This document shows positions 9,113-61,989 of a stretch of 64,000 nt of DNA, piece after piece; the first letter of the stretch is position 1; each line of letters opens with the position of its first letter. A model generated the notes under the pieces. It was not told the origin of the DNA. It was given only the letters and a program-made list of their open reading frames with translations, and ran no database searches. The stretch lies in assembly GCF_000769405.2 (NCBI RefSeq), contig NZ_CP053439.1:2232001-2296000 (forward strand), in the 5' to 3' direction. A program made the position numbers and the translations under genes. Source of the stretch: Rhizobium brockwellii. Its GTDB lineage: Bacteria; Pseudomonadota; Alphaproteobacteria; Rhizobiales; Rhizobiaceae.

Positions 9113-9847
<735 letters not shown>

Positions 9848-9850
9848 CTA

Positions 9851-10011
9851 TCTAGCCAGGCCGGTCTTCTGACTCGGCGTCATCCGTCTGCCGCAGCCTT
9901 CCCGGCAAGAAGCCAGTGGCGTGATGAAGCGGCAAGCGTCGGCCTTACAGCGTTGGGCACGTTCCGGCCTTGCACCGGATTCCCGATTCTCCCGCCTGGA
10001 CGGCGGGCACC
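9851..10011 (-). promoter_or_regulatory. Cobalamin (B12) riboswitch upstream of bluB
   Basis: Read on the minus strand, the element starts GGTGCCCGCC, followed by GGGAATCCGGTGCAA, CGCTGTAAG, the B12 box core GCCACTGG, GGGAAGGC, and ends AGTCAGAAGACCGGCC. These blocks come in the canonical order of the cobalamin riboswitch. Its 3' end lies about 45 nt upstream of the bluB start codon, leaving room for a structure that hides the ribosome-binding site. Adenosylcobalamin binding should repress bluB. Confidence 0.92.
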
Positions 10012-10178
10012 TGACGGCGCATCTATTTCAGGAAAGCGCGGCGGCGGCAAGCCGGCCCTCATGCCGCCGACACGCTGCATGCGACATCGATTTCATGGAC
10101 AGAGGCGCATCGCTGCCTTAGAAACAAACCGATCCTGACCGACGCCCATGGCGCCGCACTTTTCTCTTTGCATTTTGG

Positions 10179-14358: not shown

Positions 14359-14442
14359 TATCCGGAACCGTGCTTAGTTCGTAAAGCAGTGCAAATGCAT
14401 AGCGCCCAAAAGCATAGGCGATATGCATAAACAACGACTTGG

Positions 14443-14478
14443 AGCACGTCGCATAAGAGAGATCGAATGCGACGTGCT
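14443..14478. repeat. 12-bp perfect hairpin in intergenic DNA
   Basis: AGCACGTCGCAT at 14443-14454 pairs perfectly with 14467-14478 around a 12-nt loop. It sits after the Cache-like gene, about 95 bp before the aroG leader peptide. Without a T tract it is unlikely to be a simple terminator on either strand. The sequence just upstream (14393-14440) loosely resembles the 49-bp repeat family seen at 29120 and 61519. Confidence 0.5.
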
Positions 14479-14573
14479 TTGTGGGTCCCCGGGTGTATCT
14501 TCCACAAGAGTGCCCGATTTTCAGACAGAAAATTCCGCGTGACAACGCCTGGGCGTGACGTTACATACGCGCC

Positions 14574-14648
14574 ATGTCGATCACATCAATCAACGCCTCG
14601 CGATTTTATTGGTACCGCTGCTCACAGCGGATGCGGGTCCATGCGTAA
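14574..14648 (+). CDS. Aromatic-rich leader peptide of the aroG attenuator
   Basis: A 24-codon reading frame starting at ATG 14574 and stopping at TAA 14646-14648. Codons 11-14 (14604-14615) are Phe-Tyr-Trp-Tyr in a row, so all three aromatic amino acids produced by the pathway are sampled at one point. The frame is directly followed by RNA hairpins and a terminator ahead of the DAHP synthase gene. That is the arrangement of transcription attenuators in aromatic amino acid operons. The ribosome-binding site is weak, and translation has not been shown. Confidence 0.75.
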   Translation: MSITSINASRFYWYRCSQRMRVHA

Positions 14649-14704
14649 CTGAATTCGACGCGACGACAACCCGAACAGCCGCTAGTCTACCTGGCGGCTT
14701 TTTT
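14615..14704 (+). terminator. Attenuator hairpins (1:2, 2:3, 3:4) before aroG
   Basis: Region 1 (14615-14620, CCGCTG) pairs with region 2 (14625-14630, CAGCGG), right after the aromatic codons. Region 3 (14677-14685, AGCCGCTAG) pairs with region 4 (14691-14699, CTGGCGGCT) in a 9-bp stem with one G-U pair and a 5-nt loop, followed by a T run at 14699-14704: an intrinsic terminator. Region 2 (AGCGG) can instead pair with CCGCT inside region 3, giving the antiterminator. Ribosome stalling at 14604-14615 would block region 1 and allow read-through. Confidence 0.8.
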
Positions 14705-14739
14705 GTTCCGCGCGGGTATGACCAAACAGGAGCCATACC

Positions 14740-15807
14740 GTGTCTGATACCATTGACGATCTGCGTATCGTCGAAATTACCCCCTTGACCAAGCCTGCCG
14801 ATATCATTGCGGAAATTCCCCGCAATGCTGATGTCAGCAAGACCGTGACCAGCAATCGCGATGCGATCCACCAAATTCTTCGGGGCGACGACGATCGCCT
14901 GATCGTCGTTATCGGCCCCTGCTCGATCCATGATCCCGTTGCCGCCAGGGACTATGCCGCTCGGCTCGCGGAACAGCGGCAGCGCTTCGCCGGCGATCTC
15001 GAGATCGTCATGCGCGTCTATTTCGAAAAGCCCCGTACCACCGTCGGCTGGAAGGGCCTGATGAACGACCCGCATCTCGACGGCAGCTACCGCATTGAGG
15101 AAGGCCTGCGCATCGCCCGGCGTCTGCTGCTCGACATCAATGCGATGGGCCTTCCGGCCGGCGTCGAATTCCTCGACACGATCACGCCGCAGTACATCGC
15201 CGACCTCGTCAGTTGGGGCGCGATCGGCGCGCGCACGACCGAAAGCCAGATCCATCGCCAGCTCGCCTCCGGCCTCTCCTGCCCGATCGGCTTCAAGAAC
15301 GGCACCGACGGCGGCGTCCGCGTTGCGCTGGATGCCATCCTCGCCGCCTCGCAACCGCATCACTTCCCGGCGGTAACGAAGGACGGCCAAGCGGCCATCG
15401 CCTCGACAACAGGCAATGACGATTGCCACATCATCCTGCGCGGCGGCAAGCGGCCGAACTATGAAGCTGCCGACGTCGAGGCTGTCACGAACGAAGCCGT
15501 CAAGCTCGCCGTCGCCCCCCGCATCCTCGTCGATGCCAGCCATGCCAACAGCGGTAAGGACCCGATGAACCAGCCGATTGTCGTCAAATCCGTCGCCGCG
15601 CAGATCGCCGCCGGGAACAACGACATCAAGGGCATGATGATCGAAAGCAACCTCGTCGCCGGCCGCCAGGATCTCATTCCCGGCAAGCCGCTGGTCTACG
15701 GCCAGTCCATCACCGACGGCTGCATCGATTGGGACATGTCGGTCGACGTGCTCGATAATCTGGCCCACGCCGTCCGCGATCGTCGCAAGGCCGCCGTCGC
15801 GGCCTGA
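14740..15807 (+). CDS. aroG: DAHP synthase, class I (AroG type)
   Basis: 3-deoxy-7-phosphoheptulonate synthase: condenses phosphoenolpyruvate and erythrose 4-phosphate, the first step to Phe, Tyr, Trp. 355 residues, the normal length for class I-alpha enzymes. Key stretches: VIGPCSIHDP (metal-binding Cys), RVYFEKPRTTVGWKG, GARTTESQ, FKNGTDG and DASHANSGKDP. The start is GTG at 14740 with AGGAG nearby. It sits 35 bp after the attenuator terminator, so supply of charged aromatic tRNAs probably sets its transcription. A second, unrelated class II DAHP synthase is encoded at 26135-27508. Confidence 0.93.
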   Translation: MSDTIDDLRIVEITPLTKPADIIAEIPRNADVSKTVTSNRDAIHQILRGDDDRLIVVIGPCSIHDPVAARDYAARLAEQRQRFAGDLEIVMRVYFEKPRTTVGWKGLMNDPHLDGSYRIEEGLRIARRLLLDINAMGLPAGVEFLDTITPQYIADLVSWGAIGARTTESQIHRQLASGLSCPIGFKNGTDGGVRVALDAILAASQPHHFPAVTKDGQAAIASTTGNDDCHIILRGGKRPNYEAADVEAVTNEAVKLAVAPRILVDASHANSGKDPMNQPIVVKSVAAQIAAGNNDIKGMMIESNLVAGRQDLIPGKPLVYGQSITDGCIDWDMSVDVLDNLAHAVRDRRKAAVAA

Positions 15808-15822
15808 GCGGCACTATCAAGC

Positions 15823-15845
15823 GCGGCGGGCAGATATCCCGCCGC
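15823..15845 (+). terminator. Probable terminator hairpin after aroG
   Basis: GCGGCGGG and its complement CCCGCCGC flank a 7-nt loop, starting 16 bases after the aroG stop. The stem is strong, but the T run is absent. Confidence 0.55.
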
Positions 15846-16043
15846 CCAACAGGGCGGTGGGGGCCAACCCCGGTTATCTCATGGGTACGTCTACCGGATA
15901 CGGCTTCATAACTCACGCCCGGATGATCGATCCAAGTTCCGATTTGAAAACTGGTACGAGCAACGTGGGGTTACCAACCAACCGCCCCGCCATCATGGGT
16001 GGAGCCCGAGGCCGGATCATCGGCACGCGGAATAGGAGCAGAT

Positions 16044-16568
16044 TCAATAGAGCAGCCGTGGATGCACTGAATCGGGCCCGTGTTCAGTCGCGACCCTGTA
16101 ATAAGTACGCATGTCGTCGCGCTCTTTTTCGTAAGTCCACTTCAAGCCCCATCTGCATTCTTCCGTCATGCAGTCACGGCTCTTCGATTCGAACATATCG
16201 AGTTGAAATGCCTCGCCATTGATTTCGCCGGTGATCGAGCCGGTTTTCCCCTTATCCTTCGATATGAGTTCAAACGCCCCTGCTCGACCATCCAGACAGT
16301 AGATCTTCCCGCGATAGGTTCGCTCGCCGGTCTCCAGCTTCCAGAAATTTGTCTTCACCTGCGACACGCTGTAGCGACCCTTGCATTGCTGCCTTTCGGC
16401 AGAGCCGATCTCAATCGTTCCACCCATCTCCTCACTCTCGTTCCTCGCAGTCACCTTTCCGACCACCGGAGTACCCGTTGCAAGGTAGCTTCCCTCGACA
16501 CCACGGACAAAAAGATATGAACATCCTGCGAGCGTGAAACCCATTGCCACCACGGAGCCGGCGATCAT
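16044..16568 (-). CDS. Lipoprotein of unknown function
   Basis: 174 residues from the chosen ATG. The N-terminus MIAGSVVAMGFTLAGC is a lipoprotein signal with lipobox LAGC, so the Cys at residue 16 would be lipidated. The mature part is mostly beta-type sequence with four further cysteines (near QQCKGRY, YCLDG, RDCMTEECRWG), probably disulfide-bonded. No domain is recognised. An upstream in-frame extension to 16850 looks non-coding. Base composition (about half GC) is lower than that of core genes, as in the neighbouring membrane protein, suggesting an accessory patch. Confidence 0.65.
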   Translation of the reverse strand: MIAGSVVAMGFTLAGCSYLFVRGVEGSYLATGTPVVGKVTARNESEEMGGTIEIGSAERQQCKGRYSVSQVKTNFWKLETGERTYRGKIYCLDGRAGAFELISKDKGKTGSITGEINGEAFQLDMFESKSRDCMTEECRWGLKWTYEKERDDMRTYYRVATEHGPDSVHPRLLY

Positions 16569-26134: not shown

Positions 26135-27508
26135 TCAGCCGTTGGCGACCATCCGCTTTTCGTCGCGGCCGCCCTTCATGCGCTCGGCAAGCAGGAAGGC
26201 GAGTTCGAGCGCCTGGTCGGCGTTAAGGCGCGGATCGCAATGGGTGTGATAGCGATCCTGCAGGTCTTCTGCGGAGACCGCGCGGGCGCCGCCGGTGCAC
26301 TCGGTCACGTCCTTGCCGGTCATCTCGATATGGATGCCACCCGGATGCGAACCTTCGGCGCGGTGGATCTGGAAGAAGCTTTCGACTTCCGACAGGATCC
26401 GCTCGAAGGGACGGGTCTTGTAGTTGTTGAGCGTGATCGTGTTGCCGTGCATCGGGTCGCAAGACCAGACGACCTTGCGGCCCTCGCGCTCGACGGCGCG
26501 AATGAGCTTCGGCAGGCTGTCGGCGACCTTCTCATGGCCGAATCGGCAGATCAGCGTCAGGCGCCCTGCCTCGTTGGCAGGATTCAGGATGTCGATCAGT
26601 TGCAGCAGGTCGTCGGCCTGCAGCGAGGGGCCGCATTTAAGGCCGATCGGGTTCTTGATGCCGCGGCAATATTCGACATGCGCATGGTCGGCTTGGCGCG
26701 TACGGTCGCCGATCCAGATCATATGGCCCGACGTTGCATACCAGTCGCCCGACGTGGAATCCACGCGCGTCAGCGCTTCCTCGTAGCCGAGCAGCAGCGC
26801 CTCGTGGCTGGTGAAGAAATCGGTCTCGCGCAGCGCCGGCTGGTTTTCCGAGGTGATACCGATCGCCTTCATGAAATCCATGGTTTCGCTGATGCGGTCG
26901 GCAAGCTTGCGGTAGCGCTCGCCCTGCGGGCTGTCCTTGACGAAGCCGAGCATCCACTGATGCACGTTTTCGAGATTGGCGTAACCGCCCATCGCAAAGG
27001 CGCGCAGAAGGTTCAGCGTCGCAGCCGACTGGCGGTAGGCCATGGCCTGGCGTTCCGGGTTCGGAATGCGCGACTCCTCGGTAAACTCGATGCCGTTGAT
27101 GATGTCGCCGCGATAGGCCGGCAGCGTCACGTCGCCCTGCTTCTCGACATTTGACGACCGCGGCTTGGCGAACTGGCCGGCGATGCGGCCGACCTTGACG
27201 ACCGGCAGCTGCGCGCCGAAGGTCAGCACGACAGCCATCTGCAGGAATGCGCGGAAGAAGTCGCGGATATTGTCGGCGCCGTGCTCGGCGAAGCTCTCGG
27301 CGCAGTCGCCGCCCTGCAGCAGGAAACCGTTGCCTTCGGCGACATTGGCGAGATGCTTCTTCAGGCGGCGCGCTTCGCCTGCAAAGACAAGCGGCGGATA
27401 GCTGGCGAGCGTGGCTTCCGTTGCCGCCAAAGCGGCTGCGTCGGGATATTCGGGAACCTGCAGGATCGGTTTTTGCCGCCAGCTGCTCGGGGTCCAATTG
27501 TCTGCCAT
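26135..27508 (-). CDS. aroF: DAHP synthase, class II (plant/AroH type)
   Basis: 457 residues, the type II DAHP synthase found in plants, actinobacteria and many alphaproteobacteria; unrelated in sequence to the class I enzyme at 14740. Landmarks: [11 protein letters not shown] (metal-binding Cys), [50 protein letters not shown] (with conserved Asp/His) and [15 protein letters not shown]. The ATG follows AGGTGAG; a GTG three codons upstream is in frame. It supplies the shikimate pathway and probably serves as the housekeeping enzyme. No leader peptide with aromatic codons was seen upstream of it. Confidence 0.95.
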
Positions 27509-61567: not shown

Positions 61568-61715
61568 GGAAAGATCAAACAACCAACGAAGCGCGGAAGG
61601 CGACACGGTCGTCGCCTCCGTGTGAACAGTGTGTCCATCGGCGTTAGGGCAGCTTTGCATTTTTGCCCGGTCAAGTGACCTTGCCATCCGCCTGTATTTG
61701 ATCCTATCTTTGAAA

Positions 61716-61862
61716 CGTTCTCAGGGCGGGGTGTAATTCCCCACCGGCGGTATCAGGAGCAATCCTGGAGCCCGCGAGCGCTTCCGGCACCTCCTGTCGG
61801 AAGGTCAGCAGATCCGGTGAGATGCCGGAGCCGACGGTATAGTCCGGATGGAAGAGGACAAC
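61716..61862 (+). promoter_or_regulatory. FMN riboswitch (RFN element) before ribB
   Basis: CTCAGGGCGGGGTG, AATTCCCCACCGGCGGTA, GAGCCCGCGAGCG, GTCAGCAGATCCGGTG, GATGCCGGAGCCGACGGT and TCCGGATGGAAGAGGA appear in the right order for the six-helix FMN aptamer. It lies 127 nt upstream of the ribB start; flavin mononucleotide binding should lower expression. Confidence 0.96.
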
Positions 61863-61989
61863 ACGGGCAGTCGCACTCCATCCCGGAGTCGGCTGACGTT
61901 TGTTCGCCCAAGGGCAGAAGGCACGCTCACGGATTGAGCTGAGCAGACCATGTCAGCCCGCTGACATAACCCTTGAAAGGCCAGACAGC

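Follow-up and report, generated by a model that had tools for sequence, protein, structure and literature searches.

Does the short, aromatic-rich reading frame upstream of a class I DAHP synthase gene in Rhizobium brockwellii serve as the sensor of a transcription attenuator? A first-pass annotation of the window, the 64,000-nucleotide stretch of DNA that was analyzed, had read it as the leader peptide of a classical ribosome-stalling attenuator. The sequence, its comparison with relatives, and a model of ribosome stalling make it very probable that the aroG leader acts as a ribosome-mediated transcription attenuator, with charged aromatic tRNAs as its signal and the class I DAHP synthase as its target.

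The class I DAHP synthase gene and its leader

The DAHP synthase gene (aroG/aroFGH type) occupies positions 14740–15807 of the forward strand. It begins with GTG, contains 355 codons, and is preceded by a Shine-Dalgarno-like AGGAG at 14728–14732. The AroG protein passes the TIGR00034 (aroFGH) model with 521.5 bits against a cut-off of 173.2, and with the narrower AroG model NF006723 it scores 524.3 bits, under the cut-off of 568. The closest solved sequence is 1gg1, which is Phe-regulated. AroG has one match in the 7.1-Mb genome, and the nearest named relatives among the matches listed are Rhizobium leguminosarum, R. pisi, and R. johnstonii, with AroG identities of 95–96%. The window also contains a class II DAHP synthase gene (26186–27496, reverse strand; TIGR01358, 708.2 bits) some 10 kb away from aroG, and both isozyme types are therefore represented in it. 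Inspection by eye of the ∼400 bases upstream of the class II gene revealed no leader like that of aroG.

The leader ORF, also on the forward strand, consists of 24 codons and a stop codon (14574–14648), encodes MSITSINASRFYWYRCSQRMRVHA, and is predicted to be leaderless. Codons 11–14 (TTT-TAT-TGG-TAC, 14604–14615) encode Phe-Tyr-Trp-Tyr and are the putative sensing codons. They run into region 1 (CCGCTG, 14615–14620), which can pair with region 2 (CAGCGG, 14625–14630). Region 3 (AGCCGCTAG, 14677–14685) is the 5′ arm of a terminator hairpin identified by sequence, folding, and a terminator scan; region 4 (CTGGCGGCT, 14691–14699) is its 3′ arm, and a run of six T (14699–14704), seen in the sequence and by the terminator scan, completes it. 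An intrinsic terminator is thus placed between the leader ORF and aroG, and the terminated RNA is predicted to be ∼131 nt long with its 3′ end near 14704. Region 2 has a second possible partner, because AGCGG (14626–14630) is complementary to CCGCT of region 3 (14679–14683), and pairing of region 2 with region 3 is exclusive of the terminator. Folding predicts two further helices within the antiterminator: a second helix formed by 14634–14638 with 14669–14673, and an innermost helix formed by 14642–14646, an arm that spans the end of the leader ORF, with 14658–14662. The leader coordinates, aromatic codons, stems 1:2 and 3:4, and T run given in the first-pass annotation all match the sequence exactly, as does the complementarity between regions 2 and 3 that it pointed out.

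Chance expectation and conservation of the leader

The two strands of the window together contain 465 ATG ORFs of 15–34 codons, and this leader alone has four consecutive aromatic codons. When the 250 nt before aroG were dinucleotide-shuffled, such an ORF with at least four aromatics in five codons appeared in 24 of 20,000 shuffles. The same treatment of 129 upstream regions produced an ORF with at least four aromatics in five codons in 19 of 12,900 shuffles (0.15%), and 98 of the 129 real regions contain one. The terminator hairpin is the sole terminator-like site in 14400–16050. As shuffles of this region average 1.2 such sites, the hairpin by itself is weak evidence, and it is the conservation that carries weight.

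Conservation was assessed in an even sample of 397 order-level genomes from a larger group. A class I AroG (E ≤ 1e-60) is encoded in 59 of them, and in all 59 the gene is preceded by an ATG leader with at least three aromatics in five codons and by a terminator. Among the best 80 of 368 named loci, the leader is present in 76 and the terminator in 77; those without a leader are L087 (Zwartia), L107 (which has 48 nt of upstream DNA), L109, and L110. The aromatic codons, whose conservation in relatives had been proposed as a check, are therefore retained. A search of the class found aroG in 14 of 385 genomes, 12 of them new, and the leader in 10 of these 12. One class-level genome (L142) has a leader-like ORF with Phe and Tyr codons only, and in another (L144) the contig starts 157 nt upstream of aroG, inside the terminator. 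Two class-level genomes (L150 and L153) each have one stop codon within the class I aroG frame. The leader is also found upstream of aroG in two Alcaligenaceae (L078 and L103), and its range therefore exceeds the Alphaproteobacteria. The leader counts below start from 139 loci; removal of 8 with duplicate upstream DNA left 131, and removal of the four loci without a leader by our rule (the same four named loci) left 127 leaders for analysis.

A covariance model of the leader, R1, was built from 36 of these leaders, and for this reason it tests where else such leaders occur and not whether they are real. Against the 397 genomes of the order, R1 gave 60 matches of at least 83 bits, one at each of the 59 aroG loci and one at an additional copy; the next match is at 38 bits. 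At E ≤ 0.1, matches occur in 258 of the 397 genomes, and the weak ones mostly cover the terminator end of the model alone. A second leader copy (L162; G352:C48, 62504–62632; 90 bits) is situated on a different contig from the aroG gene of the same genome, and no aroG remnant was found beside it (best tblastn E 4.5).

A conserved promoter in front of the leader ATG

A −35-like box (GTGACA, 14539–14544) and a −10-like box (TACATA, 14562–14567) precede the leader on the forward strand. The −10-like box begins 17 nt after the −35-like box and ends 6 nt before the leader ATG. One locus has too little upstream DNA, and the promoter counts are therefore given for 126 unique regions and not 127. TTGACA or GTGACA, with at most one mismatch and 33–38 nt upstream of the leader ATG, is present in 121 of the 126, and is found in 4.2% of mononucleotide shuffles. 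A −10-like hexamer is in the expected place in 114 (shuffles, 8.6%), and both boxes occur together in 109 (shuffles, 0.36%). The case for this promoter rests on conservation, since a generic promoter scan of 14400–16050 returned two other sites and did not include this pair of boxes.

The position of the boxes would place the transcript start on or beside the A of the leader ATG (14574). A start downstream of 14574 had been named in the first-pass annotation as an argument against attenuation; the conserved promoter points instead to 14574 itself. A Shine-Dalgarno-like motif was found upstream of the leader ATG in none of the 126 regions, and one precedes aroG in 112 of 127. Given a conserved promoter that ends 6 nt before the ATG and the absence of a Shine-Dalgarno motif in 126 of 126 regions, the aroG leader is probably leaderless, like trpL of Sinorhizobium meliloti. 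The trpL leader ORF is leaderless, with a transcript that starts at its own ATG (PMC7298713, PMC10117765). As far as the available text of these reports goes, trpL/rnTrpL belongs to the same order and shares the leaderless layout predicted here, but it senses Trp only, encodes a peptide of 14 residues, and controls trpE(G). A leaderless small ORF is of a kind that annotation tends to miss.

Two leader layouts and the evidence for pairing

The 127 leaders are of two types. In the Rhizobium type (50 unique leaders, including those of Neorhizobium and Xaviernesmea), the CCGCTG...CAGCGG hairpin comes after the aromatic codons. The other type (77 unique leaders, including those of Bradyrhizobium, Devosia, Bosea, and Kaistia) has a region 2 of GGCGG or GGCAG 3′ of the aromatic codons, often within Leu-Ala codons, and in the folds inspected its partner is often 5′ of the aromatic codons. 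The position of region 1 in other Hyphomicrobiales thus differs from that in the Rhizobium type. One base of region 3 follows the type. It is T in the Rhizobium type, where it forms a T·G pair in the terminator in 50 of 50 leaders and faces A of region 2 in 49 of 50. The other type has C at this base, which forms a C-G pair in the terminator in 77 of 77 and faces G of region 2 in 76 of 76 (the region 2 pattern was not found in L078).

Alignment A1 of the Rhizobium type has 49 rows, leaving out L072, which is a repeat from the ATG to the gene start. Alignment A2 of the other type has 74 rows and leaves out L089, likewise an ATG-to-gene-start repeat, and the betaproteobacterial L078 and L103. 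In A1 the cells of helix 1:2 are 96.6% paired and those of 3:4 are 100% paired. Three pairs of 1:2 and 3:4 have changed on both sides, a number reached by none of 500 shuffles and resting on 4 cells; in 10 of 49 rows the bases beside the 1:2 loop do not pair. One terminator pair in A2 has changed from G-C to A-U in 5 rows. The three antiterminator helices in A1 are paired in 97.4% of cells (95.1% for the second helix and 97.6% for the innermost), but show no excess covariation, with 385 of 500 shuffles as high; for the second helix (14634–14638/14669–14673) taken separately, covariation is likewise not above shuffles. Compensatory changes, which the first-pass annotation had suggested looking for in the stems, thus exceed shuffles in 1:2 and 3:4, on those 4 cells, and do not exceed them in the antiterminator.

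The 2:3 duplex is better than synonymous recodings at the 5% level in 18 of 127 leaders, and for the strain studied here 32 of 200 recodings are as good. The spacer between regions 2 and 3 is weakly more stable than dinucleotide shuffles (mean z −0.84 for 50 leaders of the Rhizobium type and −0.86 for 76 of the other type). In these comparisons the terminator and 1:2 are well supported; the putative 2:3 pairing is conserved but varies little and has little independent support, as covariation is no higher than in shuffles and recodings are beaten in 18 of 127 leaders.

In loci that are not of the Rhizobium type (e.g. L017, L019, and L137), a GCCGCCGG-like stretch directly follows the T run and could pair with region 4, which might stabilize the read-through state there. 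This pairing is better than shuffles at the 5% level in 32 of 127 leaders. In the leader of this strain 109 of 200 shuffles are as good, and the pairing was therefore rejected here and left out of the model.

Modeled stall positions that favor the antiterminator

The proposed mechanism depends on where the ribosome stands. The transcript would begin on or beside the leader ATG, and a ribosome would load at its 5′ end. A shortage of Phe-, Tyr-, or Trp-tRNA would stall the ribosome at codons 11–14, where it would cover region 1; regions 2 and 3 could then pair and the polymerase would continue into aroG. With a good supply, the ribosome would reach the stop codon and cover region 2, allowing 3:4 to form and transcription to stop near 14704.

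This geometry was examined in a thermodynamic model, which is not a measurement. The ribosome was taken to cover the RNA up to 13 nt beyond the first A-site base. The RNA ahead of this edge, ending before region 4, was folded, and upstream pairing of region 3 was read out as a probability. For the 50 leaders of the Rhizobium type, with the four cluster codons successively in the A site, the mean probabilities are 0.87, 0.86, 0.82, and 0.80. A stall one codon before the cluster gives 0.52, and one codon after it 0.34. Elsewhere the values are 0.35–0.58 at earlier codons, 0.05–0.42 at later codons, and 0.38 at the stop codon, and without a ribosome the antiterminator probability is 0.21. The intermediate values at early codons and at the stop codon count against the attenuator reading. 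For L001, L058, and L076, 150 synonymous recodings apiece never reached the contrast between stall positions, and the height of the peak was reached by 0, 0, and 3 of them, respectively. Moving the ribosome edge to +10 or +16 shifts the antiterminator window by one codon. According to the model, a ribosome stalled on the sensing codons of the Rhizobium type leaves region 2 free to pair.

For the 77 leaders of the other type, the probability is 0.90 at the aromatic codons and 0.16 at the stop codon. Codons before the cluster (0.83–0.91) and the bare RNA (0.66) also favor the antiterminator. RNA of this type that is left untranslated would be expected to favor read-through, which departs from the classical scheme, and the model is less specific for this type than for the Rhizobium type.

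A conserved leader and terminator, with a modeled stall peak on the four aromatic codons, support the classical attenuator reading. The leader, its codons, the terminator, their conservation, and the promoter spacing come from sequence and comparison, and the stall geometry is modeled; the transcript start, translation of the leader, termination in the cell, and the relative weight of the amino acids are what we infer from them. If it holds, this scheme would supply a clear mechanism for an attenuator family that is widespread among soil- and plant-associated Alphaproteobacteria and apparently has no name. It would also account for the way in which an optional DAHP synthase of class I tracks the aromatic supply without a dedicated repressor.

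Amino acids probably sensed by the leader

Phe and Tyr codons are both present in the aromatic cluster of all 127 leaders. A Trp codon is found in 22 of 50 leaders of the Rhizobium type versus 75 of 77 of the other type. On a tree of the AroG proteins (126 rows, made by a quick method), the Trp label changes at least seven times, with three changes forced by starred branches, and the early branches of the Rhizobium type are without Trp. Judged from these counts and changes, the Trp codon is labile within the Rhizobium-type clade. The first-pass annotation had the leader sampling Phe, Tyr, and Trp together, which is true for this strain but holds for fewer than half of the leaders in its own clade.

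The same attenuator might therefore act in effect as a Phe/Tyr gauge, with the Trp codon inside the sensing window adding little. Its absence from 28 of 50 Rhizobium-type leaders and from 6 of 10 further class-level leaders is consistent with this, as are the repeated changes on the tree and the behavior of the Corynebacterium aroR leader (Phe-Tyr-Phe), which, according to the available portion of the report, answers Phe but not Tyr limitation (PMC11802643). On the other hand, Trp is nearly constant in the other type, and a stall at the Trp codon is predicted to give the antiterminator (0.82). We regard the lesser role of Trp as possible but the less likely case; it is compatible with the attenuator reading in every respect except the role of Trp. 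Because strains differ naturally in a single Trp codon of an otherwise constant sensor, natural variants offer a direct test of what a mixed leader responds to.

Other explanations for the locus

The leaderless layout and the predicted release of a short RNA also fit a product that acts in trans, as in the S. meliloti rnTrpL/peTrpL precedent (PMC7298713, in the part of the text available). The terminated RNA (∼14574–14704) and the aromatic peptide would then form a dual-function regulator whose targets include other aromatic or transport genes. Like rnTrpL it would be a hub, but one that serves Phe, Tyr, and Trp together and is kept beside aroG across the order. The peptide, however, differs between the two leader types, and we consider action in trans unlikely. 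A plain terminator for upstream transcription next to a chance ORF, with no translational regulation, gains something from the frequency of terminator-like sites in shuffles of the region, but it leaves the conserved aromatic leader, promoter, and spacing unexplained, and the promoter sits directly upstream of the leader; on these grounds it was rejected as very improbable. Direct binding of an amino acid or tRNA by a riboswitch or T-box would account for a terminator upstream of a biosynthetic gene. The constant feature, though, is the coded aromatic run, and no Rfam family matches at threshold, so that such an element was also rejected and is the least probable of these explanations. Attenuation by a stalled ribosome remains the preferred reading.

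Relation to known leaders

Rfam assigned no family to the leader at threshold, and at a lax threshold the only match in 14480–14800 was RNAI (E 4.3). Phe_leader (RF01859) had no match in this region of the window up to E 10. In a set of 13 relatives, the same family showed a weak likeness at the leader in two, with 35.4 bits in L080 (E 0.03) and 30.8 bits in L078 (E 0.32), where the threshold is 55 bits.

The nearest precedent is the aroR leader of Corynebacterium glutamicum, which encodes Phe-Tyr-Phe and likewise precedes a DAHP synthase gene, aroF, whose transcription is raised by Phe limitation (PMC4046766, PMC11802643). It differs in belonging to another phylum and in that Tyr availability is without effect, and no Trp codon is named in the available parts of these papers. 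In Acholeplasma, the uORFC-13-1 motif is a predicted upstream ORF with one or more Phe codons and a terminator before aroF (PMC8632094), again upstream of a DAHP synthase gene; from the available text, its consensus contains a ribosome-binding site, its structure is different, and it comprises 24 sequences from another phylum. According to the first-pass annotation, such a leader is not known to have been described for aroG in rhizobia. No description of it was found in the open-access PMC literature, outside of which most subscription papers lie, but leader-peptide control of aroF had already been reported in Corynebacterium. With DAHP synthase leaders known there and predicted in Acholeplasma, the aroG leader, having neither an Rfam match at threshold nor an open-access description, is apparently a new family of ribosome-mediated attenuators, with a leaderless start and a labile third amino acid as its special traits.

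Two riboswitches above the Rfam threshold are present elsewhere in the window, an FMN riboswitch (61713–61863, forward strand, 116.8 bits) and a cobalamin riboswitch (9842–10029, reverse strand, 116.2 bits).

Outside aroG, five of eight stretches taken from the weak R1 matches (L163, L164, L165, L167, and L168, order family f41) carry a leader of the form ...FVYFYYVT.IPAA and a terminator upstream of a tyrosyl-tRNA synthetase gene. The L163 gene matches TIGR00234 with 350.7 bits, and the genes of the other four were judged by eye. These leaders likely represent a tyrS attenuator.
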